From: an uncultured Acidobacteriia bacterium
Lineage (GTDB): Bacteria; Acidobacteriota; Terriglobia; Bryobacterales; Bryobacteraceae
Assembly: GCA_903907865.1 (NCBI GenBank)
Contig: CAIVPR010000035.1
Coordinates: 1-64,000, forward strand
Direction: 5' to 3'
DNA: 64,000 bases
How positions within the stretch are numbered: the first letter of the stretch is position 1; the number at the start of each line of letters is the position of its first letter. This document shows positions 9,119-36,100 of this stretch, one piece after another. Made by a program: the position numbers and the translations under genes. The notes below the pieces were generated by a model. The model was not told the DNA's origin, searched no databases, and was given only the letters and a program-made list of their open reading frames with translations.

Positions 9119-9227
9119 ATCCGTCCATCATGATGACGGCGGATGGGTTGTCGTCGCACTGTTTTCGCCCACACGATCTGGTCAACCGTTCGCGGTGGAG
9201 TTCGAGGGAGCCTCAGGCATGATCGGG

Positions 9228-9503
9228 CTACGCCTCGTAGTGGTAGCGACCCTGCAGGAACGTCACGGACTCCGCGGTGACTTCGTACACCAAACGGTGC
9301 TCGCCGGTTATTCGGCGGGACCAACAACCCGCAAATTCATATCGCATCGGCTCCGGTTTGCCGATCCCGGCGAACGGGCTCCGCATCACATCTTCCACGA
9401 GGTCCAAGACCCGCAGCGCGATCTTGCGGTCGTTCTTGGTCCAATAGTGGAGGTCCTCGCGGAACTTTGTCGTGAATATAGACGTCCGGTCAGTCTTGCC
9501 CAA
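9228..9503 (-). CDS. YoeB/Txe-type toxin (RelE superfamily mRNA interferase)
   Basis: About 91 aa. The core TTKFREDLHYWTKNDRK, PFAGIGKPEPMRYEFAGCWS and RRITGEHRLVYEV, with the terminal QGRYHYE, is that of YoeB: a ribosome-dependent endoribonuclease with catalytic Glu, Arg, His and C-terminal Tyr residues. The start is inferred: no ATG precedes the domain in frame, and TTG at 9503 lies inside the end of the antitoxin gene, giving a 14-nt overlap typical of yefM-yoeB operons. All key residues are visible, so the toxin looks functional. Confidence 0.85.
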   Translation of the reverse strand: MGKTDRTSIFTTKFREDLHYWTKNDRKIALRVLDLVEDVMRSPFAGIGKPEPMRYEFAGCWSRRITGEHRLVYEVTAESVTFLQGRYHYEA

Positions 9504-9774
9504 GCCCCAACTCCAGGCGCAAGTCTGCGACCGACGATGGCTGCAGCTGCCCGCTCCGTCCCTCTTGAAGGGCGCTGAGCAGCCTCGCGGCATTCGCGGG
9601 AGAGCGAAGAAGATGGGCCGTTTCCATCAGGCTGGACAGTTCGTCGGCTGGAATCAGGGCCACTGCACCCCGATCACGACGCCGAACGACGACCACTTCC
9701 TGGTCGTTGCAGACGCTATCCAGCACCGATGACAGGTTTTGGCGCAGATTGGTGTAGGTTGTCTCAATGGGCAT
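9490..9774 (-). CDS. YefM/Phd-type antitoxin
   Basis: 94 aa starting MPIETTYTNLRQNLSSVLD, the PhdYeFM fold that dimerises and binds DNA, followed by VVVVRRRDRGAVALIPADEL and a flexible C-terminal tail that should wrap the toxin. The frame is open to 9861, but the ATG at 9774 matches the family start. It lies 43 nt downstream of the YetA-like lyase gene, so the pair might be co-transcribed with the polysaccharide locus as well as autoregulated. Confidence 0.85.
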   Translation of the reverse strand: MPIETTYTNLRQNLSSVLDSVCNDQEVVVVRRRDRGAVALIPADELSSLMETAHLLRSPANAARLLSALQEGRSGQLQPSSVADLRLELGLGQD

Positions 9775-9817
9775 CGTTGACTCCTGCTTGTAGCGTACAG
9801 CATAGCTGTACGTGGTC

Positions 9818-12469: not shown

Positions 12470-12514
12470 GCGGGGTTGGGCCTGAGGTATGAGACTTTGC
12501 TGCGGCTTCCGATG

Positions 12515-21881: not shown

Positions 21882-22231
21882 GACGGACCCTCCGTCGGAG
21901 TAGCCTTCTTCCGAGCGGTCGGTCTCTTCGGGGCCCGCGCCCGCGGCTCCAGCCCCGCGTCCTGGAGTTTCCGGCCCAGGAGATCGTCCTGCGCCAACAG
22001 CGCGAGGTCGTTTTCCAACTGCAGCGCCTGCAGCACCCGCGCATAGATCCCGAGCGCCACCACGGGATCGCCCTGTTCCACCCGGTAGAGGGTTTTGCGC
22101 GAGATCTCCGCGCGCTGCGCGACAGTTTCCGCTGAATACGCACGGCGCAACCTCGCCTTGCGGATGTTTCCGCCCAGCCCCTCGAGCAGGCGGGTCAGGC
22201 GGGGCAGCAGCGAGGGAGTTTGCCGTGGCAT
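21878..22231 (-). CDS. hipB: HipB-like XRE-family antitoxin/regulator
   Basis: A 117-aa DNA-binding protein with a helix-turn-helix (ARLRRAYSAETVAQRAEISR, about 25-60) and a Lys/Arg/Pro-rich C-terminal tail. It is the first gene of the hipBA operon. A 7-bp inverted repeat (ATACCCA/TGGGTAT) immediately upstream at 22245-22272 is a natural autoregulatory operator. Confidence 0.85.
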   Translation of the reverse strand: MPRQTPSLLPRLTRLLEGLGGNIRKARLRRAYSAETVAQRAEISRKTLYRVEQGDPVVALGIYARVLQALQLENDLALLAQDDLLGRKLQDAGLEPRARAPKRPTARKKATPTEGPS

Positions 22232-22244
22232 AACAAGTCATAGT

Positions 22245-22272
22245 ATACCCAGTTTTAACGCTTCTTGGGTAT
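22245..22272 (-). promoter_or_regulatory. Candidate HipB operator palindrome
   Basis: ATACCCA at 22245-22251 and TGGGTAT at 22266-22272 form a perfect inverted repeat with a 14-bp spacer, 13 bases upstream of the hipB start. The surrounding bases are A+T-rich (TAGTATACCC), as expected for the promoter. Binding by HipB is inferred from position only. Confidence 0.5.
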
Positions 22273-22295
22273 TCAATGACCGGTTGTCTCGCGTC

Positions 22296-23108
22296 TCAGT
22301 TCCCGGTAGGAATCCGCTCCATGCGGTCGATGACCAGCATCCGGAGCGGGATGGTTTTCGCCGTCGCTTTCAGCCCCAGCTGTTTTTCGAGCGCCTTTAG
22401 CAGTTCCGTCTGGGCGGGCTTGTTGTCCTGCGCCTCCGCCGGAGCGGTCAACTCGATGTCGAAGTTTCCGGTGAGGCCGGTCGCGTCGACCAGCGGGCGG
22501 TCCAGAATGCGGGTGGCATCGAGGGCTTCGAGCAGGCCCGCGACCGTCAATCCGGATGGCGCGGTGCCGAGTTGACTGCTGAAGTGCCACAGGCCTTCTT
22601 GTGCCCGTGCGGTGTACTTCGGGAAATCGGTCGGCGGGGCGGGGTTCTTGGCTTCACGCAGCTTGGTCCCTTGGTCGGAAACGCGGACCTCGAAGGCTTT
22701 CACGTCGCGGGTCTCCCAGTGCGTCACAAGGCCGAAGCGGGTCGCCAGCAGGTCTTGAAACATGAGGTTCAGGTTGGCGGGGCTGGTATCGCGGGGGAAG
22801 GTGACGGAAACGTCGTAGCCGCGCATGCCGCGCTGGGCGTCCACCCACACGGGCCATACGATTTGGTAATCAGGCAGGGGCCAGGCGCGGCGGACGAGGT
22901 GTTTGACGCTGGCCTTGTGGAGGTCGACGCGGATGGGGTCGTAGCGGGTGGCGGGCCGGTCGGAAGTTTCGTTGACCTTGATGGACGCGGCGTCGAATTG
23001 CGGTCGGGCGGAGGTGACCTGCGCGAGGACGGTTGTTGGCACGAATGCGAGCGCCGCCAGTGTGGTCCAGATCAGGGCTGGCGGGAGGCAGGTGGCGGAT
23101 CGGTGCAT
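22296..23108 (-). CDS. TIGR03435-family secreted protein
   Basis: 270 aa with a clear signal peptide (about 1-30, ending VLAQ). The opening PQFDAASIKVNE, then LVRRAWPLPDYQIVWP, GMRGYDVSVTFPRDT, FQDLLATRFGLVTHWETRDV and the ending VDATGLTGNFDIELTAP are the hallmarks of TIGR03435, a family first noted as highly multiplied in Solibacter. The function is unknown, but members are periplasmic or surface-associated. This supports the acidobacterial assignment. It is transcribed away from hipBA, whose operator lies 24 bases beyond its stop. Confidence 0.9.
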   Translation of the reverse strand: MHRSATCLPPALIWTTLAALAFVPTTVLAQVTSARPQFDAASIKVNETSDRPATRYDPIRVDLHKASVKHLVRRAWPLPDYQIVWPVWVDAQRGMRGYDVSVTFPRDTSPANLNLMFQDLLATRFGLVTHWETRDVKAFEVRVSDQGTKLREAKNPAPPTDFPKYTARAQEGLWHFSSQLGTAPSGLTVAGLLEALDATRILDRPLVDATGLTGNFDIELTAPAEAQDNKPAQTELLKALEKQLGLKATAKTIPLRMLVIDRMERIPTGN

Positions 23109-23237
23109 GTCTTCTCAAATGAGGATGACACAACCGGATGAAATGCCATACCGGCAGGTGAAAGGCCCTGCGGCTTCAATTCATTGAGGAACGCTGCGGC
23201 GTCTCTCTTCCCAAGACCACATCTACGCCCGCCAAGA

Positions 23238-23476
23238 TCAACCGAAGCTTGGAAGTCGGGCCAATCCGGTCGCTGTCGATTCAAGGACAACATTGCCGGG
23301 TGCCCCGCCCCAATTCAAATTGCTGGTCAGCGGTACGCATATTACGGTTCCAATTCGACTTTGGTTGAGTGCCTCACCCTGAACGACAACGACAGGCCGA
23401 CGGTATCCCGGCGCGGAACCGGTGGGCGAAGGGAGGTCCGCCCACCATATGTCGCCAAGTCGCCCTGCGCAATCAC
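23238..23476 (-). pseudogene. Decayed MazF/PemK toxin gene
   Basis: The frame with IWWADLPSPTGSAPGYRRPV and VICVPLTSNLNWGGAPGNVV is clearly MazF/PemK. The expected start, GTG at 23476, gives VVIAQGD but is then out of frame because GGCGACTT is followed by a near-duplicate GGCGACAT, an 8-base tandem expansion. The toxin frame runs into a TGA at 23238, just after TGLAR, where intact MazF would continue with a conserved DSVANVSQ-like segment. The gene therefore carries two frame-breaking lesions. GTG at 23476 overlaps the stop of the antitoxin remnant by GTGA, preserving the ancestral operon layout. Confidence 0.75.
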
Positions 23477-23631
23477 CACTCGACCTGTTCCAACGCGCGA
23501 TTTGCCGCGAGCGAAACGAAAGGATCTGAGCCCGTGCCTCCAACGGCGTCGAGCGCCGAATTCATGGCTTCGGTGACGGCATCGCGTGAATGGCGCGCAA
23601 GGTATTCCTTGACCGCGACGCTGTCTTCATG
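23473..23631 (-). pseudogene. Remnant of a MazE/CopG-type antitoxin (C-terminal part)
   Basis: The minus-strand frame ending at TGA 23475-23473 reads EYLARHSRDAVTEAMNSAL and ...ANRALEQVEW. This is the C-terminal half of antitoxins usually linked to MazF (ending in the typical LExVEW). The N-terminal DNA-binding half is missing: upstream of 23640 the sequence becomes the promoter region of the Uma2 gene and no start codon with a matching domain is found. It is read as a 5'-truncated antitoxin left after a rearrangement. Confidence 0.6.
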
Positions 23632-23703
23632 CTGAAAGTATAACCAGAACGGGCATCCGCCCGCGCGGTGTTAGGGTGGGGTGACCGCCGAAGGAAACAT
23701 CCA

Positions 23704-24384
23704 ATGCTGCTGGCCGAACTCATTTCCGCCCCGACTCTGATCGAAGGCGACTCGCTCACGAGCGACGAGTTCCTGCGCCGCTGGGACGAGATCTCCGATC
23801 TCAAATACGCCGAACTGATGGATGGAATCGTCTACATGCCCGCTCCCGTCAGCCATCCCCATGGACGATGCAAACTGTTCTTGGCCAGTTGGCTCGACGC
23901 TTACGCAACTGCGACTCCCGGATGCGAACCGATTATCGACGGAACATGGCTGATGGGAGAAAACCAAGTGCCCCAACCGGACTTGGCACTTCGGATTCTG
24001 TCAGAGTACGGCGGCCAGTCGGCCGTGAAGGGATTGTACCCCTCCGGGGCACCGGAGCTGGTAGTGGAGGTGGCCGTATCCAGCCGGTCGCGCGACTTCG
24101 GGGCGAAGAAGAGGCTGTACGAGCGAGCGGGCGTCCACGAATACGTGATTGCGCTGCCGCGAAGCGAAGAACTGCTGGCCCTATCGCTGACACCGCATGG
24201 CTTCCGTCCCTTGGAGGTAGAGGACAGCGGCGTATTCAAATCGCACTGTTTCCCCGGACTCTGGTTGGACACGGCGGCTCTTTGGAGCCAGGACCGTGTA
24301 CGCAGGAACACCGTCCTTCAGCAAGGACTGGCCACACCCGAACATGTTCGGTTCCTCGGGGAACTAGCCGCCCGAAAGCGTTGA
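23704..24384 (+). CDS. Uma2-family PD-(D/E)XK-like protein, full length
   Basis: 226 aa. It has the complete Uma2 core: GDSLTSDEFLRRWDE, then GTWLMGENQVPQPDLALRI (the Asp strand), APELVVEVAVSSRSRDFGAK (the E-x-V strand) and KKRLYERAGVHEYVI. It serves as the reference for the shortened paralogue at 19146. The start ATG at 23704 is fixed by the match of the first residues to the paralogue. The upstream bases (GGTGACCGCCGAAGGAAACATCC) resemble those before the paralogue, so the duplication included the promoter. Cellular role unknown; the family is often multiplied in cyanobacteria and acidobacteria. Confidence 0.85.
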   Translation: MLLAELISAPTLIEGDSLTSDEFLRRWDEISDLKYAELMDGIVYMPAPVSHPHGRCKLFLASWLDAYATATPGCEPIIDGTWLMGENQVPQPDLALRILSEYGGQSAVKGLYPSGAPELVVEVAVSSRSRDFGAKKRLYERAGVHEYVIALPRSEELLALSLTPHGFRPLEVEDSGVFKSHCFPGLWLDTAALWSQDRVRRNTVLQQGLATPEHVRFLGELAARKR

Positions 24385-24478
24385 TGCTTTGCGGGGGCCG
24401 CACCTTGATGACGGCGTCGGCCCTATCCCGCCTCGGGCGTTTCGCTCCTTGGCAGGTCGTGGCAAGATGCTGACAAGG

Positions 24479-24503
24479 ACGCTCCCTCGCGGTCGCGGCT
24501 CGG
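24479..24503. repeat. Dispersed short repeat, family A, copy 1
   Basis: ACGCTCCCTCGCGGTCGCGGCTCGG. Related copies lie at 31663-31686, 33063-33090, 39128-39151, 47966-48011 and 52538-52564, in both orientations, always between genes. It lies between the Uma2 and ECF sigma genes, which converge. Confidence 0.75.
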
Positions 24504-24558
24504 CTTGAATCAGTACGGTACCGAGTGATTGCGCGCGCCACGAGGCGTCGGGAGGATG

Positions 24559-25125
24559 CTACTGCTGCATCCGCCTCAACAACCACGCATGGGCCACGCG
24601 GATCTCGCGTCCGATCGTAGCCGCGGAGATTTCCATCACTTCCCCGATTTCCTGCACGGTCATCCCGCCGAAGTACTTCATCTCGATGATCTTGGCTTTC
24701 CGCTCATCCTGCAGCGCCAAGGCCTCGAGCGCTTCGTGCAACTGCAGGATGTCGGTGCCGCTTTCCGGGGCGGCCGCGAGGTCGTCGCGCAGGGTCAGCA
24801 CTGCACCCCCGCCGCCGCGCTTGGCTGCCGACTTGCTCCGGGCGTGGTCCACAAGGATGGTCCGCATCACTTGCGCGGCCAGCCCGAAGAATTGCGCCCT
24901 GTTCTGAAATACGAGCTGGTCCTGGTCGGCCAGCTTCAGGTATGCTTCGTGCACCAGCGACGTCGGCTGGATTGTCTCCGCTTCATACCCGCGCCTCAGA
25001 TGGGACGCGGCGAGCCTCCGAAGCTCGCCATAAAGGATCGGGGTGAGCTGGTCGAGGGCGCTCCGATCGCCCTTGCTCCAGCTCATCAAGAGCTGCGTTA
25101 CCTCGTTCGTTGCCACGGCTGTCAT
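24559..25125 (-). CDS. ECF-type RNA polymerase sigma factor (TIGR02999-like)
   Basis: 188 aa. Sigma region 2 begins MSWSKGDRSALDQLTPILYG and continues with LHRRG-like ETIQPTSLVHEAYLKL. Region 4 is QDERKAKIIEMKYFGGMTVQ followed by EIGEVMEISAATIGREIRVA. The TIGR02999 subfamily is common in Acidobacteriota and Planctomycetota and is often linked to Ser/Thr kinases or secreted proteins, neither of which is adjacent here. I chose the ATG at 25125 because residues further upstream are unlike the family. Confidence 0.85.
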   Translation of the reverse strand: MTAVATNEVTQLLMSWSKGDRSALDQLTPILYGELRRLAASHLRRGYEAETIQPTSLVHEAYLKLADQDQLVFQNRAQFFGLAAQVMRTILVDHARSKSAAKRGGGGAVLTLRDDLAAAPESGTDILQLHEALEALALQDERKAKIIEMKYFGGMTVQEIGEVMEISAATIGREIRVAHAWLLRRMQQ

Positions 25126-25269
25126 TGTCTTACATAAAGGAGAACGCTGTCCAACCGGCAAATCGCTCACCCTGCGGCAAGAAAATTTTCGAACTGTGGT
25201 AGCCTGATGTTTCCAGCGCTGCTGCAAATGTAGCGTAACGGTTCAACCTCCCGAGGAGTCTTCCAAAAC

Positions 25270-25791
25270 ATGTTTCGTGATTTCCGCGCCGCGCGCGCCA
25301 TTGTTTTCGCCCTCGCCTTGTCCGGCTTTGCCGGTTTGGCATCCGCCCAGGTGAAGGTCGCCGTGATCAACACCCAGAAGGCCATGGCCGACACCGACGA
25401 GCTCAAGAAGGCCTCCGCCGCCGTCGAAGCCAAGTACAAGCCCCGCCAAGACGAGTTGGCCAAGATCCAGGCCGACCTCCAGTCGATTGAGCAGCAGCTC
25501 AACAGCGGCAAGCTGAACCAGAACGCGATGGCCGAACTGCAGGCCCAGGGTACGCGCAAGCAGCGCGACGCCCAGCGGATCTCCGACGACCTCCAGGCCG
25601 ACTTCGAGCGCGACCGCCAGGACATCCTCGGCAAGGCGTCCACCAAGATGCAGGCGATCATCCAGAAGCTGGCCGAAGAGAAGGGCGTTGACGTCATCAT
25701 CGACGCCTCCCAGACCCTGTTCTTCAAGCCGGCCCTCGAGCTGACCACCGACGCCACCGCCGCCTACAACAAGGCCAATCCGGCCAAGTAG
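25270..25791 (+). CDS. OmpH/Skp-family periplasmic chaperone
   Basis: 173 aa with a signal peptide (about 1-26, ending ASAQ), then VKVAVINTQKAMADTDELKK, the beginning of the Skp/OmpH body domain, followed by long coiled-coil tentacles (about 45-130, rich in Gln, Lys, Asp, Glu) and a closing VDVIIDASQTLFFKPALELT strand. It binds unfolded outer-membrane proteins in the periplasm. The usual neighbours bamA and lpxD are absent. A good terminator follows at 25809. Confidence 0.9.
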   Translation: MFRDFRAARAIVFALALSGFAGLASAQVKVAVINTQKAMADTDELKKASAAVEAKYKPRQDELAKIQADLQSIEQQLNSGKLNQNAMAELQAQGTRKQRDAQRISDDLQADFERDRQDILGKASTKMQAIIQKLAEEKGVDVIIDASQTLFFKPALELTTDATAAYNKANPAK

Positions 25792-25808
25792 GCCCAACCG
25801 GACCTCAA

Positions 25809-25849
25809 TGATCCCGGCCGCGGAAACATTTGCCCGTCGGCCGGGGTCA
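25809..25849 (+). terminator. Terminator after the OmpH-like gene
   Basis: TGATCCCGGCCG at 25809-25820 pairs with CGGCCGGGGTCA at 25838-25849 (12 bp with one G-U wobble). It is followed by TAATAAAT, A+T-rich but without a long T tract. It separates ompH from the next gene at 25868. Confidence 0.6.
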
Positions 25850-25867
25850 TAATAAATACGGGATCGA

Positions 25868-26383
25868 ATGCCGGGCTATCTGGACAACTACGGCGCTGGC
25901 GAAGAGCAGCGCAACCGCATTGTAAGCCGGATCGGGATAGCGGTCGTTTCCCTGTCGATAGTCGGTGCCCTCGGCTGGTACCTTTTCGAGAACCACCACC
26001 AGGAGAGCGTGGTGAAGAGCTTTCTGACCACCCTCCGCTCGGGCGACCTCCAATCCGCCTACCGCATCTGGGGCTGCACTCCGCAGAAACCCTGTTCCAG
26101 CTACAATTTCACCAAATTTTCCGGGGACTGGGGTCCAGCGGGAGCCTCCAAGCCGGAGGACACCCCCGATTTGGCCGTCCTCGCCCTCACGGACAGCCAG
26201 TCCTGCAACAACGGCGTCCTCCTCACGGTCGATGTCAACAAAAACCGCACCGAGAAGCTCTGGGTCGACAAGAACGGTGACGGAATCAGCTTTGCACCGT
26301 ATCCGATTTGCCCCCACAAGAGCCCGTGGTCGATCATGATTCACCGCACGGTGGGTCGGCTGAGGCAGCCGCTCCTGCGTTAG
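25868..26383 (+). CDS. Single-pass membrane protein of unknown function
   Basis: 171 aa. A short cytoplasmic N-terminus (MPGYLDNYGAGEEQRNR) is followed by one membrane segment (about 20-40, IGIAVVSLSIVGALGWYLF). A soluble extracytoplasmic domain contains SFLTTLRSGDLQSAYRIWGC and several cysteines (GCTPQKPCSSY, SQSCNNG, YPICPH) that could pair as disulfides. Its mild similarity to small lipoprotein-like domains that carry a DUF4878-type helix-plus-sheet fold is uncertain. It lies 43 nt before the citrate synthase gene. Confidence 0.6.
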   Translation: MPGYLDNYGAGEEQRNRIVSRIGIAVVSLSIVGALGWYLFENHHQESVVKSFLTTLRSGDLQSAYRIWGCTPQKPCSSYNFTKFSGDWGPAGASKPEDTPDLAVLALTDSQSCNNGVLLTVDVNKNRTEKLWVDKNGDGISFAPYPICPHKSPWSIMIHRTVGRLRQPLLR

Positions 26384-26426
26384 GGCCGAGAAAACGACTG
26401 CTGGATTAGACTAGGAAGTTATCGAC

Positions 26427-27557
26427 ATGAGCACTACTACCACAACGGGCGCGGGACTGGAAGGCGTCGTCGCCGGCGAATCCGAGATCTGTTACATTGA
26501 TGGCAACGAGGGCATTCTCAGCTACCGTGGCTACAACATCCACGTGCTGGCTCAGGAAGCCACCTTCGAGGAGGTCATTTGGCTCCTCTGGAAGGGCTGG
26601 CTCCCCAAGGCCGACGAACTGGCGGGCCTCAAGGCCGCCCTGTTCGCCCATGCCGCGATTCCGGCGCAGGTGGAGGCCTTCCTGGCCGCCAACGCCTCGC
26701 ATTCGCCCATGGACGTGCTGCGCACGGCCGTGTCCATGCTGAGCCTGTACGACCCGCTTGCCAAGGACATGTCGCCCGAGGCCAACCAGTTGAAGGCTAC
26801 GCAGCTCATGGCGCAGACTTCGACGATTGTCACCTCGCTCAACCGGCTCCGCCTTGGACTTCCGATTCTCCAGGCCGATTCCTCGCTCAGCTTCGCGGGC
26901 AACTTCCTGTATTGCCTCACCGGCAAGAAGCCCGACGACGTGATGGAGCACGTTTTCGACGTCGCCCTCACGCTGCACGCCGACCACGAACTGAACGCCT
27001 CCACCTTCGCGGCGCGCGTCACGGCGGCCACGCTTTCTGACATCTACTCCTCGGTCACCTCCGGCATCGGCGCCCTCAAAGGACCGCTGCACGGCGGCGC
27101 GAACGAGGAAGTGATCAAGATGCTGCTCGAAGTCGGCACGTCGGACAAGGCCGTTGAGCGCGCCCAGGACATGCTGGCCCGCAAGGTTAAGATCCCCGGT
27201 TTCGGCCACCGCGTCTACCGCACGGAAGACCCGCGCGCCACGCACCTGCGCAAGATGTCGGAAGCGCTCGGCAAGAGCACCGGCCATGAGGACCTGTACC
27301 TGATGTCCAGCCGCGTCGAGGAAGTGGTAAAGGAAGCGAAGAAGCTGAACCCGAACGTGGATTTCTACTCCGCCTCGGCCTACTATTCCCTCGGCATTCC
27401 GATCGACCTGTACACCCCGATCTTCGCCGTCAGCCGCATGGCTGGCTGGACGGCTCACGTTTTGGAACAGTACCACAACAACCGCCTGATCCGGCCCCGC
27501 GCCGAGTACAAGGGCAACGCCGACGGCATGCCATGGATTCCCATGGCCGAGCGGTAA
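26427..27557 (+). CDS. gltA: Citrate synthase
   Basis: A 376-aa type II-like citrate (or 2-methylcitrate) synthase. It starts GLEGVVAGESEICYIDGNEG and ILSYRGYNI, with the conserved fold entry. The catalytic residues sit in the usual motifs LHADHELNAST, KGPLHGGANEEVIKML and KIPGFGHRVYRTEDPRATHL, and the ending is the CoA-binding AGWTAHVLEQYHNNRLIRP. It condenses oxaloacetate with acetyl-CoA. The class with about 375 aa is common in Acidobacteriota and Gram-positive bacteria. Citrate versus 2-methylcitrate preference cannot be told from sequence alone. Confidence 0.9.
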   Translation: MSTTTTTGAGLEGVVAGESEICYIDGNEGILSYRGYNIHVLAQEATFEEVIWLLWKGWLPKADELAGLKAALFAHAAIPAQVEAFLAANASHSPMDVLRTAVSMLSLYDPLAKDMSPEANQLKATQLMAQTSTIVTSLNRLRLGLPILQADSSLSFAGNFLYCLTGKKPDDVMEHVFDVALTLHADHELNASTFAARVTAATLSDIYSSVTSGIGALKGPLHGGANEEVIKMLLEVGTSDKAVERAQDMLARKVKIPGFGHRVYRTEDPRATHLRKMSEALGKSTGHEDLYLMSSRVEEVVKEAKKLNPNVDFYSASAYYSLGIPIDLYTPIFAVSRMAGWTAHVLEQYHNNRLIRPRAEYKGNADGMPWIPMAER

Positions 27558-27559
27558 AA

Positions 27560-27832
27560 GTGGAAGAGAAGGACTATTACACGGAAGCACCGGCTACCAA
27601 GCCGATCATGCTGAACTGTCCTTGGTGCCGCACGCAGGACACCTACGACATCAAATGGCTGGTGCGCACCAAGCGCGCCAGCCTTCCTCCCCGCGCCGAC
27701 GAGCGCGACCGCGCCAAGTTCGCCAAAGCCCAGAGCTACATGGTGCTGCTTGACACCCAGACCATGTGCAAGAACATGCGCTGCCGGAAGCGGTTTGACA
27801 TTTCCGGCATCAAGACGATGGCGTTTATCTAG
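27560..27832 (+). CDS. Small zinc-ribbon-like protein
   Basis: A 90-aa protein starting at GTG 27560, 2 nt after the citrate synthase stop (a likely operon). It has two CxxC-like pairs, LNCPWCRTQDTYD and MCKNMRCRKRFD, separated by about 50 residues. The arrangement resembles a zinc ribbon with an insertion. The function is unknown; small ribbon proteins like this often bind nucleic acids. Confidence 0.65.
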   Translation: MEEKDYYTEAPATKPIMLNCPWCRTQDTYDIKWLVRTKRASLPPRADERDRAKFAKAQSYMVLLDTQTMCKNMRCRKRFDISGIKTMAFI

Positions 27833-27846
27833 TCGGGTGTGTGAGA

Positions 27847-27937
27847 TCAGGGCACCCCAGCCCTGAGCGGTCCGCATTGTCTCCGTTAATGGTGACAGAA
27901 TCATCAGCAGCCAAGCCTTTTCTGGCTGCCGATGATT
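27847..27937 (+). terminator. Two tandem hairpins downstream of the citrate synthase operon
   Basis: TCAGGGC at 27847-27853 pairs with GCCCTGA at 27860-27866. AATCATCAGCAGCCA at 27899-27913 pairs with TGGCTGCCGATGATT at 27923-27937 (15 bp, one mismatch). Neither has a long T tract, but the pair probably ends transcription before the next operon. Confidence 0.55.
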
Positions 27938-28001
27938 CCTCTGCGGTATCCTATTCGAGGGGCTAAACTGCTGAATTCAGCCGCCAGTGCGTCTGCTGAC
28001 C

Positions 28002-28412
28002 ATGGATTCGATTCGTCTCCAACCCAAAGAACCAATTGCGCCGCGCGAGATCATGCGGAACGATGTGACGATATCGGTCCTCAGCGCCATGCCGGGGGAC
28101 AGGCTTGTGCTGGGTTTTGACGTTCACAGCGACAACTACTTTCCGATCACTTCCGTCCCGGTGGGCCGGACCCCGCTTGTAGCAGATGCCTGCCAACTTT
28201 CGTTGGAATGCGATATTCTGATTACACCCGCTGTATATCCGGTCGTGCCCAATGACCGGAGTGTGTTACGTTTCCCGATCACCGCATCCAATACTGACGG
28301 TGAAATTGATAGGGCGCTCAAAGGGTTGGCCCGCGTCCGGCAACTCGTCGAGAGTGCCAATCCGACAAGCACATTTCCATTTTCACGAGGCGAACAACCC
28401 CAATGCAATTGA
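28002..28412 (+). CDS. Free-standing C-terminal domain of an alpha-oxoamine synthase-like PLP enzyme
   Basis: 136 aa. The second half reads DILITPAVYPVVPNDRSVLR and FPITASNTDGEIDRALKGLA, the C-terminal small domain of the 8-amino-7-oxononanoate synthase / class II aminotransferase family (G-x-NPVVYPAVP...RLRFxxTAxHT). The large PLP-binding domain with its catalytic lysine is absent: the N-terminal 60 residues do not resemble it. It is either a stand-alone domain or the remnant of a longer gene. Its end overlaps the methyltransferase start by 10 nt, so it is probably translated with it. Start at ATG 28002. Confidence 0.55.
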   Translation: MDSIRLQPKEPIAPREIMRNDVTISVLSAMPGDRLVLGFDVHSDNYFPITSVPVGRTPLVADACQLSLECDILITPAVYPVVPNDRSVLRFPITASNTDGEIDRALKGLARVRQLVESANPTSTFPFSRGEQPQCN

Positions 28413-29224
28413 CATCGGTACTGATTGGCAAGAGCTACGACGATCTGAATGCACTGTTCACCATTGCGTTCGGTTCGCACATTCATAACGGCTACTGGTA
28501 CTCCCCGGAGGATCATAGTCCACTGGAGGTCGCGCTGCAGCGCATGAATGACCTGATCATCGAGAAACTGGCGGCCCACAGGGATTGGTCCGTGCTGGAT
28601 GTGGGCTGCGGCGGGGGCGCAATCATGCGTCAGCTTGCCACAAGGGTGGGTTGCCAGACGTTGGGCATCTCGAACAGCCACGTCCAGATCGACGCAGCCA
28701 ATGCGCAGGCGCGAGCGGTGGGGATCGACCAGTTGGCCAAATTCCAATTCGCCGACGCCAATTCCCTCCCTTTTCCAGACGCGCACTTCGACGGTGCCCT
28801 GACGATAGAGTCGCTCTGCCATATGGGCAATCGGCCCCGTGTGTTGCGCGAACTCGCGCGGGTCCTGCGCCCGGGGGGGCGCATCGTTGTGGTCGATTTC
28901 GCGCAGAGTAGTGCGCCTCTGTCGCAGGCTGAGAAGGACTTCCTCGACGACAACGAATTGGATTTCTTACTGTTCGACGAGATCGGGGATTTGTTCCGTG
29001 GCGCAGGATTCGAGGTCCTGGAATCCGTGGACTTGAGCTGGACCACCGTAATGTCCCAAGATGCCATGCTCGAGAGCGTTAGGCAGCGGCGGGCCGAACT
29101 GCTGGCCCACTACACAGATGACTTTATCGATGCGTTCGAAGCCAACTGGCTCCAGCTCACGGATGTCTTCGAGAAACATGTGTCCTACCTACTGCTCGTG
29201 GTGCAAAAGCCCATTGACGGGTAG
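28403..29224 (+). CDS. SAM-dependent methyltransferase (gamma-tocopherol MT / RebM-like)
   Basis: 273 aa. The N-terminal HIHNGYWYSPEDHSPLEVAL is the cap characteristic of small-molecule C-, N- or O-methyltransferases such as RebM, sterol and tocopherol methyltransferases. Motif I is VLDVGCGGGAIMRQLA. QFADANSLPFPDAHFDGALT and ESLCHM follow with RVLRPGGRIVVVDF, all typical. The substrate is unknown. It overlaps the upstream orphan domain gene by 10 nt and precedes a small gene and the P-type ATPase, all co-directional with tight spacing. Confidence 0.85.
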   Translation: MQLTSVLIGKSYDDLNALFTIAFGSHIHNGYWYSPEDHSPLEVALQRMNDLIIEKLAAHRDWSVLDVGCGGGAIMRQLATRVGCQTLGISNSHVQIDAANAQARAVGIDQLAKFQFADANSLPFPDAHFDGALTIESLCHMGNRPRVLRELARVLRPGGRIVVVDFAQSSAPLSQAEKDFLDDNELDFLLFDEIGDLFRGAGFEVLESVDLSWTTVMSQDAMLESVRQRRAELLAHYTDDFIDAFEANWLQLTDVFEKHVSYLLLVVQKPIDG

Positions 29225-29257
29225 GCCGGCGACTGACGCCAGACTTCGGAAACCAAT

Positions 29258-29506
29258 ATGCCGCTAGAGAAATCGAAGTGTCCGGTCTATTCCGTCAAAG
29301 AGTGGGATCCAAGCTATGCGGTCGCCAAACGCTTGCTCGAAGCGAACAGAGGCACGTTCACGGGAGAGCTCGTCATTCAACTGAGCTCCGGGGGCGAGGA
29401 CCCCGCCATGTTCGACGCCTTGGCGCGCCTCTACGAGCTCGGCATGGTCACGGGCCGGAGCTTTGACGACAGCCTGTGCGTGGCGGATTTGCAAGCTCAC
29501 GTTTGA
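29258..29506 (+). CDS. Small hypothetical protein between the methyltransferase and the ATPase
   Basis: 82 aa, MPLEKSKCPVYSVKEWDPSY..., mixed charged and helical without a membrane segment. One early cysteine (Cys-8) is present. DPAMFDALARLYELGMVTGR is an amphipathic helix. It ends 10 nt before the ATPase start, with the frames not coupled. I do not recognise a family; its conserved place in the operon would be its best clue. Confidence 0.55.
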   Translation: MPLEKSKCPVYSVKEWDPSYAVAKRLLEANRGTFTGELVIQLSSGGEDPAMFDALARLYELGMVTGRSFDDSLCVADLQAHV

Positions 29507-29516
29507 GAACCTCGAG

Positions 29517-31643
29517 ATGGTCCACATTCCCGTTCTATTGCTAATGGCTGGCGGAGGGGCTCTCCTTTCCGGAGTCGGTCGACGGAAGACACCCAAGAAG
29601 GGTGCAATCCGACCGATGGCACGCCCATCAGCCGCGACGCAGACCGCAACCAAGTTGAAGGGAACCACAGTCACCTTTCAAACGCGGGCCCGGAAGCTGG
29701 CGACCCAAGTGGTGCAGCCCCTTGTCGGCAAAGAGAGGGATCGGCAGTTTGCCGTATTGCATGCGGACAGCGAAAACGCCCTCCGCTCGATCGAGGCGCG
29801 GGAGGAAGAAGAAGAGGCGCAACTGCAGCTGGGAGTTTCGCTGCTTACGCTGGGAGTGACGGTCGCGGGCCAGCTCTTCTACCCGCCATTGATGCTCTTG
29901 AGCCTGCCCGGCCTTGTGTATACAACGATTCCCTATCTGAGGAAGGGATACGAGGACCTGAAGGCGAAGGGTCGGCCGACGGTAACGACGCTGGATCTAA
30001 TTCTGCTCCCCGGTGTGCTGCTGCTCGGAGATTTCGTTGCCCTCTCTTTGACAACAACGGCTCTAGCCGTGGCGCATTTGCTGGTCCATAGGATGGAAAA
30101 CCAGTCGATGCACCGCGTCGTGGATATCTACGGCAAGCAGCCGATGAAAGTCTGGATCTTGTCGCACGGCGTGGAAGTCGAGATACCCTTCGCGCAACTG
30201 GCCGCGGGCGACCTGCTGGTCATCGGTGCCGGTCAGGTGATTCCGGCGGACGGCGAGATTGTTGAGGGCGAGGCTTCCATAGACCAGCGGGTGCTGACCG
30301 GTGAAAGTCAACCGGTGGAAAAAGGCTCGGGCGACCCGGTGCTGGCTGCAACTCTGGTGTTGGCGGGCCGCATCGTGGTGAAGGTGGAACGTACGGGGCC
30401 GGCGACTTCCGCCGCCAAGATTGCCGAAGTGCTGGCCAACACGTCGGCCTACAAACAAACCTTTGAAGCGAAGAGTTTGGCTGTCTCGGATCAATGGGTG
30501 GGGCCCACGCTCATGATGTCGGCCATCGCAACAACGTTTCGCGGATTCCAAGGTGGACTCGCGATGCTGCTATCCACTCCAGGCTATGACCTCAGAGTCC
30601 TCGGGCCTTTGAGCATGTTGACCTTCTTGAGAGTCGCTGTCGAGAACGGAGTGCTGATCAAGGACGCGCAGGCATTGGAGCGGCTGACGTCGATCAATAC
30701 GATCGTGTTCGATAAGACGGGTACGCTAACACTGGAACAGCCCCATGTGCGCGAGGTCCACGCTTATCAGGGCTGGCCGGAGAAGGAAGTGCTGCGATTT
30801 GCCGCAGCTGCGGAACAGCGCCAGTCCCATCCGATTGCCCGCGCGATCATCCTGGCGGCCCAAGCGCAAAATCTCGAACTGCCTCATCCCAGCGAGGCAC
30901 GCTATGAGATGGGGCTTGGCATCAAGGTTTCGCTTGGCACGGTTGTCGTTCGGGTTGGCAGTGCCAGGTTCATGACACAGGAAGGGATTCCCTTGCCGAC
31001 GGCGAGTACGGAGTTGCAGGCAAGAGTTCATGCACTGGGGCACTCACTTGTGCTGGTAAGCGTCGGCGACGTGTTGGTTGGGGCGATTGAACTGGAGCCC
31101 GCCATTCGGCCGGAGGCTCGTCAACTTGTCGCGCAGTTGAAGGCACGGAGAAAGAAAGTATACATCATCTCCGGCGACCATGAAGAGCCCACCAGGGCGC
31201 TCGCGCAAGCACTGGGAGTTGATCGCTACTTCGCCAACACGCTTCCGACCCAAAAAGCTGACTTGGTGAAACAGTTGCAGGCTGAAGGCAAGGTAGTCTG
31301 CTTTGTCGGCGACGGGCTCAACGATGCCATCGCGTTGCAGCAAGCAGACGTCTCCATTTCCCTTCGCGGCGCGACTACGCTCGCGACCGACACCGCCCAG
31401 ATCGTTTTGATGGGTGGATCGTTGCAGGCGTTGGACCGGCTGCTTTCCATTGGTCAGGAGTACGCGCGTACGATGCTGAGTAACTATGCCATATCCTTCG
31501 CGCCTTCAATGGTTACGGTCGGGGGCGTTCTGTTCCTGCATTTTGGCGTAACATCGGCGCTGACCGTATATAGTCTGGGTCTGGCTGCCGGGGTTGTGAA
31601 CAGCCTGTCGCCTCCGTTGGTGGAGTCGGTTCGGGTAAAGTAA
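29517..31643 (+). CDS. P1B-like P-type ATPase lacking the CPC metal site
   Basis: About 708 aa. Catalytic motifs are all present: LTGESQPVEKG (actuator, about 260), DKTGTLT (phosphorylated Asp about 399), SHPIARAI (the P1B-type HP motif) and GDGLNDAIAL (about 598). The transmembrane CPC of heavy-metal pumps is replaced: aligned at about 353-355 the sequence is LLSTPGYDLRVLGPLSM, keeping the proline but replacing both cysteines by Thr and Gly. There is no N-terminal HMA domain; instead a basic, then acidic stretch (EAREEEEEAQ) precedes the membrane part. It should transport a cation, but not by the usual soft-metal ligands. I start at ATG 29517 (MVHIPVLLLMAGGG). Confidence 0.85.
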   Translation: MVHIPVLLLMAGGGALLSGVGRRKTPKKGAIRPMARPSAATQTATKLKGTTVTFQTRARKLATQVVQPLVGKERDRQFAVLHADSENALRSIEAREEEEEAQLQLGVSLLTLGVTVAGQLFYPPLMLLSLPGLVYTTIPYLRKGYEDLKAKGRPTVTTLDLILLPGVLLLGDFVALSLTTTALAVAHLLVHRMENQSMHRVVDIYGKQPMKVWILSHGVEVEIPFAQLAAGDLLVIGAGQVIPADGEIVEGEASIDQRVLTGESQPVEKGSGDPVLAATLVLAGRIVVKVERTGPATSAAKIAEVLANTSAYKQTFEAKSLAVSDQWVGPTLMMSAIATTFRGFQGGLAMLLSTPGYDLRVLGPLSMLTFLRVAVENGVLIKDAQALERLTSINTIVFDKTGTLTLEQPHVREVHAYQGWPEKEVLRFAAAAEQRQSHPIARAIILAAQAQNLELPHPSEARYEMGLGIKVSLGTVVVRVGSARFMTQEGIPLPTASTELQARVHALGHSLVLVSVGDVLVGAIELEPAIRPEARQLVAQLKARRKKVYIISGDHEEPTRALAQALGVDRYFANTLPTQKADLVKQLQAEGKVVCFVGDGLNDAIALQQADVSISLRGATTLATDTAQIVLMGGSLQALDRLLSIGQEYARTMLSNYAISFAPSMVTVGGVLFLHFGVTSALTVYSLGLAAGVVNSLSPPLVESVRVK

Positions 31644-31662
31644 GGGCGCGGCCTGCAACGAA

Positions 31663-31686
31663 CACTCCCTTGCGGTCGTGGCTCGG
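31663..31686. repeat. Dispersed short repeat, family A, copy 2
   Basis: CACTCCCTTGCGGTCGTGGCTCGG, differing at a few positions from copy 1. It lies between the ATPase gene and the convergent DUF1080 gene; a truncated GCCGAGCCGCG follows near 31708. Confidence 0.7.
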
Positions 31687-31728
31687 TAACAATGGTGATT
31701 CCGCCGAGCCGCGCGGTGGGGGGCGGAG

Positions 31729-32361
31729 CTAAAGTTCCTTGATCCGGATGTTCCGGAACTCGACGTGCGATCCGTGTCCGAGGAAACCGATGTGTCCGGT
31801 TTTCCGCGCGAGGCCCGGGTGCTTCTCCAGCACCTTCGGCTCTTTCACCATGTCCAAGCTCGCGTCGAGGATGATCACGCCGTTCAGCGTCACGGTGATG
31901 TGGCGTCCTTCGACTCGGATCTCCTCCTCATTCCATTCGCCCACCGGCTTGCGGAAGCCGGTCCGCGCGGGAATCGCGTCGTAAACCGACCCGTGGTACT
32001 GCTCGGGCTTGATCACACCCTTGTACACGGCGTCGCCGTCGTCGAGGATCTGGATCTCCATGCCTTTGTAGGCTGCGTCGCCCTCGTAGGGGGCGCGGAT
32101 GCCGATGCCGTTGTTGGCACCCGGGGTCAGTAGGAACTCGAAGCGGAAGGCGAAATTGGCGTATTCCTTCTCGGTGAACAGGTTTCCGCCGCCCTCCTTG
32201 GGGCAGACGATCTTGTTGTCCTGCACCACGTAGCCGGGTCCGTGGCCGCCGACCAGCTTCCAGCCCGTGAGGGTCTTGCCGTCAAACAAAGGTTGGAAGC
32301 CAGCCTCGTCGGCGGCGAAAAGACTGGTGGCGAGGACGAGCATCGTCAGTAGAAAGCGCAT
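31729..32361 (-). CDS. Secreted DUF1080 (3-keto-disaccharide hydrolase-like) protein
   Basis: 210 aa with a signal peptide (about 1-17, LFAADEA). It is of the concanavalin-like DUF1080 family (PF06439), recognised by [45 protein letters not shown] and the ending [20 protein letters not shown]. Some members hydrolyse 3-keto-glycosides; many are abundant in Planctomycetota and Acidobacteriota. It probably acts outside the cytoplasm on sugars. Its start is 55 nt from the divergent SRPBCC gene. Confidence 0.9.
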
Positions 32362-32416
32362 GTATAGGACTTTACCTCATGTCCCCGATTCGTGCGAATA
32401 TGGGATCAAGGGCCCT

Positions 32417-33034
32417 GTGACGAACCACTATCATTTCCTGACCCGTTGGCGCGTGCGGGCGACGCCGGAGGAGGTCTACGCCATCGTTTCTGCCCCGCTC
32501 GAGTATCCGCGGTGGTGGCCCTCGGTCTATCTGGCGGTGGACGAAACCGGTCCCCGTAGGTTCCGACTGCATACGCGCGGGTGGTTGCCGTACACGCTGC
32601 GGTGGGATGCGGAGACGGTGGTTGCGGAACGGCCGGGGCGGATTGAGGTGGCCGCCAGCGGGGATTTCGAGGGTCGGGGGATCTGGTCGATCCGCGCCGA
32701 CGGGGAGTTCACGGACATCTCTTTCGACTGGAACCTACGGGCCGAGAAGCCGGTGCTGCGGAACCTCACGTTCCTGCTGCGACCGGTGTTCGAGGCCAAC
32801 CACCGGTGGGCCATGGAGATGGGACTGCAGTCGCTGGAGCTAGAATTGGAGCGGTCGCGGGCCATGACGGCGCGGGCTATGAACTCGATTCCGGCTCCGC
32901 CACGTCCGCCGCATCTTTCGGAGCGGACGATTTTGGCCGGGGCGTTGTTGGCGGGCGGGATTGTGGCTGCGTTGGTGATTTCGGCGGGTGGTGAGGGGGA
33001 TAAAGTATCGCAACCTGCGCGTGGCAGCGCATGA
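32417..33034 (+). CDS. SRPBCC-superfamily protein with C-terminal membrane anchor
   Basis: 205 aa starting at GTG 32417. The body is a START-like/polyketide-cyclase fold: YHFLTRWRVRATPEEVYAIV, YPRWWPSVYLAVDETGPRRF and LRWDAETVVAERPGRIEVAA. A C-terminal hydrophobic segment (about 165-192, ILAGALLAGGIVAALVISAGG) should anchor it to the membrane. Such proteins bind hydrophobic ligands; no ligand is evident. I chose GTG because the longer frame upstream would overlap the divergent DUF1080 gene. Confidence 0.75.
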   Translation: MTNHYHFLTRWRVRATPEEVYAIVSAPLEYPRWWPSVYLAVDETGPRRFRLHTRGWLPYTLRWDAETVVAERPGRIEVAASGDFEGRGIWSIRADGEFTDISFDWNLRAEKPVLRNLTFLLRPVFEANHRWAMEMGLQSLELELERSRAMTARAMNSIPAPPRPPHLSERTILAGALLAGGIVAALVISAGGEGDKVSQPARGSA

Positions 33035-33062
33035 GGTGGCTGAAAGCCACATGCTGATTCAG

Positions 33063-33090
33063 CCGAGCCGCGACCGCGAGGGAGCGTTTG
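33063..33090. repeat. Dispersed short repeat, family A, copy 3
   Basis: CCGAGCCGCGACCGCGAGGGAGCGTTTG, the opposite orientation to copies 1 and 2. It sits just before the bidirectional terminator between the SRPBCC and TonB receptor genes. Confidence 0.75.
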
Positions 33091-33115
33091 TGGCAGGCAA
33101 CTGCCCTAAATGGGA

Positions 33116-33148
33116 GAATGGGGACGGCCTGAGCGTCCCCATTCTTTT
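33116..33148. terminator. Bidirectional terminator
   Basis: GAATGGGGACG at 33116-33126 pairs perfectly with CGTCCCCATTC at 33134-33144 and is followed by TTTT. It lies between the ends of the SRPBCC gene (plus) and TonB receptor (minus). Confidence 0.75.
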
Positions 33149-33163
33149 GTGGTGTGATCTGAA

Positions 33164-36100
33164 CTAGAAGTTCAGACGCATGGTGACCTGCATGGTGCGC
33201 GGGTCGGTGGTGCCGCTCTTCGCTCCCCAGTTGGCCGTGGTGCTGGTAATGGCCCCTGTGGTCGCGTTGGTCGAGTAGCCGTTGAAGCTGCCGGTGTTCA
33301 CGCTCGACGTCACCAAGTGGTTGGCGACGTTGTACATCTCGAACCGGACGTCCAACTTGACACCTTCCATTACCTTATATGTCTTCACGAACGACGCGTT
33401 CACGTTGACCCAGTTGGGCAGGAAGATGTTGTAGGCACCGAGGTTGCCGAAGGTCCCGAGGGCCGGCAGCGCGAACGCCGTCGGATTCAGGATCTGGCTG
33501 CCGCCGACGTTGCCGCCCGCGTAGGGATTGCCCACAAGGTTGGGGCGCTGGCTGCCGTCGCCGGTACCGGCTTGGTCGGGCGAGATGGTGAGGTTGACGG
33601 GGAGGCCGGTCTGGAGTTGGGCCACGCCGTTGACCTGCCAGCCACCGAGCAACTGCTTGTACCAGGTGTCGCCGCCGCGCCAGAACGGGATCGGATAGAC
33701 CCAACTGGCCACGAGGACCTTGCTGCGGCTGTAGCTGGAAGTGCCCCAGTCGCCGCGAAGGTTGTAGCTGTCCATCGGCTGGTAGGCGTAATTGTTGGCG
33801 TCGCTGCGGCCCTTGGCCCAGGTAAACGCGATGCTCAGACTGCCGCCCTTGCTAAACTGCTGGCGGAACTGCGATTGCAACGAGTTGTAGATGAAGTTCG
33901 CGCCCGAGTTGTATTCCTGGATCACGGCGTATCCGGCGTAGGGCCGTAGGGAGTTCGTGTTTGCCAAGGCCGTGGTGCTACCGGGGACGAAGTGGGTCTT
34001 GCCGTAGCCCAGCGGCTCCTGGTTGATGTCCTGCACATAGGAGAGGTTGGCGGCGGAAGATCCGACGTAGGTCAAAGTCAGAACCGACGTGCGGGTGATC
34101 TTGCGCTGTCCGCCGAGGCTCCACGTCATGGTGCGGGGGACACGCATGTCGAGGAAGTGCGAGTTGTTGATCGTCTGGACCGACGTCGGGCCGCTGGCCG
34201 CCGCGCCGGGATTCAGCACCGTGCCGTTGAGGACGCTGGCCGAGGCGTTGAACGGGGCGTTGTTGATGCCGCTGAAGATGAAGTTGCCCTGGATGCGCTC
34301 ATAGGCGATGCCGTAGCCGCCGCGGATCACGGTGGACTGGTTGCCGGTCGGATCCCACGCAAAACCGAGGCGCGGGGAGTAGAGACCCCAGCGGGTGTAG
34401 GCTCCGCCCTTGGGCAGGTCATGGAACAGCGCCTTGACTGCGGCGTCATTGTACTGCGCCACACGGCCCTTGGCGGTGTCCGGGAAGCCGTTGCCGGGGA
34501 TCACGAGACCGTTGTAGGGGTTCGGAGCGGAAATAACCTGGCCGTTAGAGGGGTTGATCACCGCAGCCGTCTTCGGGTCGAAGTACTGGGGCAGGAACTG
34601 GACCGTGTTGTTGAGGGCGCTGTACTGCGGTTGCATGTAGGACCAGCGGAGGCCGATGTTCAGGGTCAGGTGTCGCGTTGCCTTCCAATCGTCCTGGACG
34701 TAGGGTTCCACCTGGCTGAAGCGGTACCAGCCCTGGCGGACGCTGCCAAACTCGGTGTAGGACTGGAAGTTGCCCATGAGGGCGTCGCCCAGCGCCTGCC
34801 CGGAGGTCGGGGTGCGCGAAGTGCTAAAGGAGTATTGGCCGTTGATGGCTGGCGGGTTGTCCTGGTTCTTGCGGCTGCGCATGATCAGGATGCCGGTCTT
34901 GATGGTGTGGGGGCCGTTGGTGTAGGTCAGGCCGTCCTTCCAGTCGAAGATGCGATTGAAGTTGTTGAAGCTTAGCGGGGAGACCGAGAGCGTCGTGAAA
35001 CCGCTGACCGCCACCTGCGGGATGTCGGGCGAAGCGTTATAGATGCTGGGCAGGCCGATGCCGAAGCCTTGGCGCGTGTAGCTCTTGATGAACGTGTCGT
35101 TCGGGATCACATTGCCCTGCTCGATGATCACGTTGCCCGTGTAGGTGAACTGGGCGACGTTGACCCAGTGGGCGTTGATCACATGGTTCCACTGGATGGA
35201 GGAGTTGAGGCCCGGGATCTGGCGGTAGTATTCGATCAGGTTGGTGGTGTTTTCGAGCTGGTTGTAGTGGTCGTGCGCCCAGTGGACGTTGATCTGGTCG
35301 TTGTCGCTCAGGTTGTAGTCGCCCTTGAGGATTTCCTGGTGGACGTTGGTGGGCGTCGTCTTGTTGAACGAGAACGTCGACGTGCCCTGGTTGGCGAGCG
35401 GGTAGATGTTGATCAGCTTCTGCATGTCGGCGTTGATGAGGCTCGCCGGAATGGTGTTGCCGGGATAGGCGACCTGCGTGGCTGGATCCCGGACCGTGGA
35501 GGTGCCGAAGTTGCCGCTCTTCTGGGCGGCCGTGGGAACGGTCCACGAGGTGGTGGCACCGATGCGCATGATCTTGATGTCCTCGGCGAAGAAGACGAAG
35601 AGCTTGTCGCGGTTCTTGTTGAACTTGGTGAACGGGAGGATCACCGGGCCGCCGATGTTGCCGCCGAAGTTGTTCCAGCGGATCTTGGGCTTGCCGACGG
35701 CGGCCGCGTTGTAGGGGCTGGCGGCCAGGTAGTCGCTGCGCCAGTATTCATAGAGCTTGCCGTGGAAGTTCTTGGTGCCGCTGCGGATCGACATGTTGAC
35801 GACCGCCCCCGCGCTCGTGCCGGCCTCGGCGCTGAAGTTCGAGGTCAGGACGCGGAATTCGCCGATGGCGTCCGGGTTGATGTTGACGAAGTTGTTGCCG
35901 CCGCCGCCGTTATCCTTATTGTCCGCACCGTCGAGGTTCCACGTGGTGGTGTCGGTGCGCCCGCCGTTGATCGACTGGCCGCTGTTGTTGACGCCGTAGC
36001 CACCGAACAGGCCGAAACCGCTGTTGTAGTTGGTGGAGACGCCGGGCAGGAGCGCCAGGAGTTCGGGGAAGTTGCGGCCGTTGAGCTGGAGTTCGCTGGC

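Follow-up and report, generated by a model that had tools for sequence, protein, structure and literature searches.

The 64,000-nt stretch analysed here (the window; positions 1 to 64,000 of contig CAIVPR010000035.1 from an uncultured Acidobacteriia bacterium) carries at 28002-31643 a row of four genes, among them the end of an alpha-oxoamine synthase, a methyltransferase and a P-type ATPase. This locus is almost certainly the relic of a five-gene natural-product operon, and not a new pathway, because the homologous operon is intact in relatives and collinear remnants of it are found here. Alignment with these relatives showed that the biosynthetic genes were cut by four internal deletions to two stub open reading frames (ORFs), and that the methyltransferase and the ATPase are full length. 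Taken as a whole, the explanation that we consider probable is that of a relic in which the stubs are coupled to retained modification and efflux genes.

Remnants of the operon and its intact relatives

ORF calling in the window gave four ORFs on the + strand (Table 1). As the earlier note on this DNA had described, the genes are co-directional, with a 10-nt overlap between ORF1 and ORF2 and gaps of 33 nt (ORF2/ORF3) and 10 nt (ORF3/ORF4). ORF1 encodes 136 aa and ORF4 708 aa, both counted from ATG, and a TTG start at 29463 is also open for ORF4; ORF3 encodes 82 aa. In NCBIfam, the matches of ORF1 to alpha-oxoamine synthase models (PRK07505, E=4.4e-7; glycine C-acetyltransferase, E=2.1e-6) were confined to the C-terminal end of the models, the final ~70-80 profile positions, and its family assignment comes from NCBIfam only, none being obtained from Pfam. 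Similarity to the C-terminal region of this family is thus present. The earlier note saw nothing but this domain in ORF1, which is right for residues 37-136; residues 1-36, a polyketide synthase (PKS) start and an acyl carrier protein (ACP) tail, had been missed. ORF2 is, as proposed, an S-adenosylmethionine methyltransferase (Methyltransf_11 in Pfam, E=3.6e-23); its best matches in the PDB are MitM, and 3bus, which we take to be RebM, ranked fourth. ORF3 had no family above cut-off in Pfam or NCBIfam. It had been listed as a small protein, and the frame does exist, but the whole protein is made of pieces of biosynthetic enzymes. ORF4 is a P-type ATPase (TIGR01525 in NCBIfam, 377.1 bits against a cut-off of 346.25). 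No Rfam match was found over 27000-33000.

Table 1. Genes, stubs and deletion junctions of the locus, in window coordinates
Feature	Position	Strand	Description
Stub 1 (ORF1)	28002..28412	+	PKS start (residues 1-13), ACP tail (~14-35), oxoamine synthase C-terminus (37-136); from L028 blocks, register alignment and partial models
Junction 1	28035..28039		PKS start / ACP tail; a 5-nt word fits either side; offset change 3834 nt, a multiple of 3
Junction 2 (approximate)	28100..28112		ACP tail / oxoamine synthase C-terminus; offset change 996 nt, a multiple of 3
Methyltransferase (ORF2), intact, 273 aa	28403..29224	+	Start lies inside the end of stub 1; from family matches
Stub 2 (ORF3)	29258..29506	+	Amidinotransferase start (~18 residues) fused to two imine-reductase-like pieces
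Junction 3	29305..29311		Amidinotransferase / reductase, in-frame gene fusion; offset change 1267 nt, in agreement with the frame difference of the two L028 genes
Junction 4	29398..29401		Inside the reductase; offset change 462 nt, a multiple of 3
P-type ATPase (ORF4), full length, 708 aa	29517..31643	+	DKTGT, HP and GDGxND motifs; TPGYD, no CPC-type motif; no N-terminal CxxC

A scan of genome contigs with ORF1 found one relative, L028 (CAIRSA010000106.1, an uncultured Acidobacteriia metagenome-assembled genome, or MAG), where the match is to the last 100 residues of a 1746-aa protein. The domains of this protein are ketosynthase (KS), acyltransferase (AT), dehydratase (DH), carrier and aminotransferase class I/II, in other words KS-AT-DH-ACP-alpha-oxoamine synthase. 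Downstream lie genes for a 276-aa methyltransferase, a 369-aa amidinotransferase, a 295-aa protein of the imine reductase/6PGDH type and a 717-aa P-type ATPase. When the window methyltransferase was searched against 237 genomes of the family, three genomes matched at E<=1e-25: its own, G788 and G501. The G788 stretch (G788:C106) matches the L028 genes at 100%, and the two were counted as one source. G501 is from the genus of the window, and its contig C58 (G501:C58) carries these five genes in identical order. By these comparisons there are two independent intact relatives, L028/G788 and G501. A class-wide search with the L028 ATPase, in which two candidates were scored per genome, gave matches at E<=1e-100 in 4 of 399 genomes. 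In the G501 copy of the operon (L059), the ATPase changes frame once, near 10310 of the reverse complement, by a real frameshift or a sequencing error.

A complete pyridoxal phosphate (PLP) enzyme at this spot in relatives, which the earlier note took as the sign of decay, is present in both L028 and G501, and the linkage of the genes in these two also bears out its view of the locus as an operon. The surroundings of the operon differ between the window and the intact relatives. Two further genomes have the window's genes for citrate synthase (95%) and the 99-aa protein (98%), namely G757 and G696, and gave no methyltransferase match at E<=1e-25, so that the operon would have been either gained by the window lineage or lost around it.

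The remnants of all three reduced genes are in order with respect to L028, at 72-84% nucleotide identity. Collinear blocks run, from window to L028, as 27996-28039 to 5057-5100, 28035-28085 to 8930-8980, 28109-29311 to 10000-11201, 29305-29401 to 12462-12558, and from 29398 onward to 13017 onward. Stub 1 is 76% identical over its last 100 residues to the C-terminus of the L028 oxoamine synthase. The four deletions have removed nearly all of the PKS and the amidinotransferase, and most of the reductase. About the last 100 of the 416 residues of the L028 oxoamine synthase domain are left, so the full PLP-binding fold is absent; the region of the PLP lysine, by its usual position in the family, lies inside the deleted stretch. 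Register alignments with L028 found about 2-5 nt that fit both sides at each of the four junctions. Microhomology is only suggested by this comparison with L028.

It could be that the full operon exists and that the contig was misjoined, the genome being in 186 contigs. We regard this as extremely improbable. The assembly is reported to be 98.27% complete, and on none of its contigs did the missing pieces that were searched for (KS, oxoamine synthase, amidinotransferase and reductase, but not AT and DH) have a match at orthologue-level identity. The best matches in the own genome were 29% for the oxoamine synthase, 53% for the amidinotransferase (contig C77), 51% for the KS (inside a 2513-aa frame) and, with the stub left out, 27% for the reductase. 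Since the amidinotransferases of L028 and G501 are 88% identical, these matches are, on their identities, paralogues and not the lost pieces. Nor would misassembly be expected to produce four separate joins that all keep the frame, and the stubs bear extra substitutions, as described below.

The second amidinotransferase of the own genome lies in a cluster of its own (G000:C77, ~21900-35161; L061), with the order ATPase-amidinotransferase-ATPase. These are followed by look-alikes of an iron-dependent oxygenase, an AMP-ligase, a carrier, a flavoprotein and a cysteine-synthase-like enzyme, labelled partly by eye.

Reading frames, divergence and the fate of the stubs

Arithmetic on the offset changes places all four junctions in frame, for which the chance is (1/3)^4, about 0.012. 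The start of each stub is the original one, and so is its end, next to the intact gene that follows. Stub 1 begins with MDSIRLQPKEPIA, compared with MHSIAPQPKEPIA in L028 and MQSIFPQLKEPIA in G501, and the start of stub 2 resembles the amidinotransferase starts of both relatives. In L028, too, the methyltransferase gene overlaps the gene before it by 10 nt, and 10 nt separate the ATPase gene from its upstream neighbour. The locus had been suggested to be the 3' half of an operon whose start was deleted; sequence was indeed lost, but the start of the first gene is retained, and internal deletions hollowed out three genes.

The in-frame joins, together with the kept starts and ends, would be explained by translational coupling, in which ribosomes that initiate at the original start of a stub are brought to a stop codon where the methyltransferase or the ATPase gene begins. 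We consider the evidence for the stubs as leader ORFs of this kind to be evenly balanced. Production would have been lost in the window lineage, which would then no longer make the compound but retain modification and efflux, possibly to protect itself from the product of a neighbour. That the retained genes are expressed and useful is a prediction that could equally go either way. Alternatively, the last two genes have simply not yet been lost: the whole operon would be dying, the methyltransferase and the ATPase not yet struck, and the in-frame joins would be luck. This second explanation we hold to be serious though somewhat unlikely.

Lineage-specific amino-acid changes, polarised with G501 as outgroup, bear on this choice. 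The three stub pieces had ratios of window-specific to L028-specific changes of 9:1, 8:2 and 4:3, in total 21:6 (one-sided P=0.003), with the final ten codons of stub 1 excluded. The methyltransferase, with 18:20, had no excess, and the stub ratio differs from it (P=0.02). Pairwise dN/dS against L028 was 0.25 for the methyltransferase, 0.29 for the N-terminal part of the ATPase and 0.15 for the rest, its main part; the reductase stubs had 0.47 and 0.36, with wide intervals. A methyltransferase without excess changes and with this dN/dS, and two remaining genes that are full length with their catalytic motifs, speak against plain decay and are consistent with retained genes.

Several observations weigh against the explanation favoured here. 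The ATPase also has an excess of window-specific changes (23:12 + 51:33 = 74:45, two-sided P=0.01), and its ratio and that of the stubs do not differ significantly (P=0.18), so that relaxed constraint is not limited to the stubs. A scan of 27800-31800 for promoters and terminators found no promoter-like site, and one terminator-like site, on the opposite strand inside the ATPase. Four in-frame joins could arise by luck about 1 time in 81. These three points, the ATPase excess, the absence of a promoter-like site and the luck of the joins, speak for decay. The PKS and methyltransferase genes of G501 are 10 nt apart without overlap, and the overlap is therefore not a fixed property. There are only two intact relatives, one of them a MAG contig from a genome with 6% contamination. 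Finally, the dN/dS of the oxoamine synthase stub is low, 0.09. Given this low value, the stub was for most of its history part of a functional enzyme, and the deletions probably took place recently compared with the split; therefore, open stubs alone are no evidence of selection.

The same low value, and the fact that both stubs are open and in frame, would suit small functional proteins, that is, a free-standing oxoamine synthase C-terminal domain and a fusion peptide. The catalytic parts are gone from the stubs, however, their window-specific changes stand at 21:6, and in a search of the phylum all 24 matches outside the own genome lay in open frames of 399-516 aa, with none free-standing. 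The free-standing functional domain considered in the earlier note is thus not supported, and functional stubs are very improbable. A structure prediction of the 136-aa protein, which that note had proposed, was uninformative (pLDDT 37, two-row alignment).

Over 271 codons, the window methyltransferase (28403-29224, compared with 10294-11124 in L028) is 77% identical to that of L028 and 62% to that of G501. Synonymous distances to L028 are uneven along the locus: 0.49 for the methyltransferase, 0.51-0.61 for the reductase stubs, 1.00-1.07 for the ATPase and 1.71 for the oxoamine synthase stub. Recombination may account for this.

The predicted pathway and known systems

In the intact operon, the oxoamine synthase would join an amino acid to a polyketide acyl chain, the amidinotransferase would add an amidino group and the reductase-like protein would reduce an imine; the predicted product is a methylated guanidino compound, with the ATPase as its exporter. 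In logic only, this resembles the first saxitoxin-type steps, catalyzed by SxtA and SxtG (pathway after PMC2885083): a carrier-fused oxoamine synthase and an amidinotransferase. The L028 protein, unlike SxtA, has a KS-AT-DH polyketide module in place of the methyltransferase-GNAT part. In the PDB, the L028 amidinotransferase ranked SxtG best, followed by HsvA and glycine amidinotransferase, a similarity only, for a protein of which ~18 residues are left in the window; the best matches of the L028 oxoamine synthase were general AONS and serine palmitoyltransferase chains. The intact operon shares the logic of the saxitoxin-type steps but has another loading architecture, and we do not class it with them. 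No description of an operon type with PKS-oxoamine synthase, amidinotransferase, imine-reductase-like protein and P-type ATPase was found in the open-licence literature.

The window agrees with the intact operon of L028 and G501:C58 in gene order, in its full-length methyltransferase and ATPase and in stubs that are collinear pieces, and differs from it by the losses and the surroundings described above. The relic belongs to a familiar category, degraded biosynthetic operons, in an unusual form. As in other degraded biosynthetic gene clusters, biosynthetic genes were lost; unlike in such clusters generally, they were hollowed out internally in frame, and both ends of the reading units and two downstream genes were kept. 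What looked like a puzzling four-gene operon can thus be read as the loss of a pathway in which self-protection may have been retained.

The ATPase clade and its gene neighbours

The most interesting lead is the pump, whose clade is tied to natural-product genes. The P-type core of the window ATPase is complete, and it shares with P1B ATPases the TIGR01525 match above cut-off, DKTGT and the HP motif. Signatures in the sixth transmembrane segment (TM6) of P1B ATPases are of the CPC, CPH, SPC or PCP type (PMC4932525). The TM6 region of the window pump has no CPC, CPH, SPC, TPC or PCP; TPGYD stands there instead. Within its first 200 residues no CxxC is present (the C-terminus was not examined for a metal-binding domain), and no HMA domain matched at E<=1 in Pfam. 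Structure prediction was uninformative here too (pLDDT 43, three-row alignment). The earlier note had proposed a natural-product or metallophore locus. A natural-product operon relic fits the first; a metallophore or metal-resistance locus is unsupported and not favoured, as the pump has neither the usual TM6 motif nor CxxC.

A 124-aa piece of the L028 ATPase, from the TM6 region to DKTGT, was searched against the 237 family genomes and gave 22 matches (E<=1.7e-18) in 8 genomes, above the bulk of the metal pumps. In a tree of 37 rows, 18 clade members including the window pump formed one group (100/100 support), and 11 canonical rows were separate (100/100). The other 8 rows, mostly FGTG-type, did not form one group; one of them, encoded on a Methylobacterium plasmid, is sister to the clade. 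All 18 members lack an N-terminal CxxC and, in the TM6 region, any of CPC, CPH, SPC, TPC and PCP; their TM6 motif varies (TPGYD in the window, CPGYD in L028, SPGYD in G501, and NTTT, SNFAP, IFGL, AIGL, MPGV and others elsewhere). The window pump is therefore part of a well-supported clade that is related to P1B ATPases and lacks their usual CPC-type metal motif. A motif filter left out of the clade set L106 (no DKTGT) and the second L100 copy (no GDGxND). These clade ATPases without catalytic motifs, L106 at 9025-11166 (G501:C64) and the L100 copy at 9719-12211 (G000:C110), indicate that some copies may be inactive.

A natural-product marker was found near 9 of 14 clade loci and near 0 of 14 control loci (P=0.0006). 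Markers were PKS, nonribosomal peptide synthetase (NRPS), AMP-ligase, amidinotransferase or related genes, scored with the same tblastn set on both sides (E<=1e-15, within the fetched stretch). The C110 copies were counted as one locus, as were G757/G696; L106 was counted though not in the tree, and G851/G852 were excluded, as the tree places them outside the clade. The comparison has to be read with the markers partly drawn from the clade loci themselves, with L028 and G501 sharing one orthologous operon, with the window scored by its stubs and L108 by a short flavoprotein match (46%), with some contigs short (one control of 3.4 kb, G642 of 7.2 kb) and with 3 of the 14 controls being FGTG-type. 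A stricter test, with condensation and acyltransferase domains only and in G000 (the own genome), G501 and G788, placed 6 of 17 clade copies within 10 kb of such a domain, where hand-estimated genome fractions would predict 0.24 (P=6e-8), or 4 of 12 when collapsed to loci (P=2e-5). All six near copies are in G501 or G788, and 0 of 6 copies in the own genome pass this test.

In the small number of cases inspected outside the family, no such link appeared. Other amidinotransferases of the phylum had no ATPase relative at E<=1e-8, either in 11 short loci (~1.5 kb flank) or in the 3 larger stretches covering three of these loci, and none of three plasmid ATPase relatives at E<=1e-60 had PKS, NRPS or amidinotransferase neighbours listed in the plasmid gene tables, which are incomplete.

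The clade pump may export cationic natural products. No report of a P-type ATPase exporting a natural product was noticed in the open-licence literature. Such export would be a new job for pumps annotated as 'heavy metal translocating', and would make these annotations misleading in these genomes. A broader reading, which we put forward as speculative and rather unlikely, is that a P1B-related clade left metal transport for the export of cationic, often guanidino, natural products, its TM6 motif diversifying with each cluster, and that the window is a former producer turned immune non-producer by in-frame hollowing of its genes into leader ORFs.

Two minor observations concern neighbouring genes. 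The 31-kb contig G000:C110 (L100, L101) carries three clade ATPases, with no PKS or NRPS markers around them and with a gene for an ABC glycine-betaine-type transporter beside one. In the window, the 99-aa protein encoded behind citrate synthase (27533-27832) has no Pfam match at E<=1 and is present in 18 of the 19 genomes of the genus.

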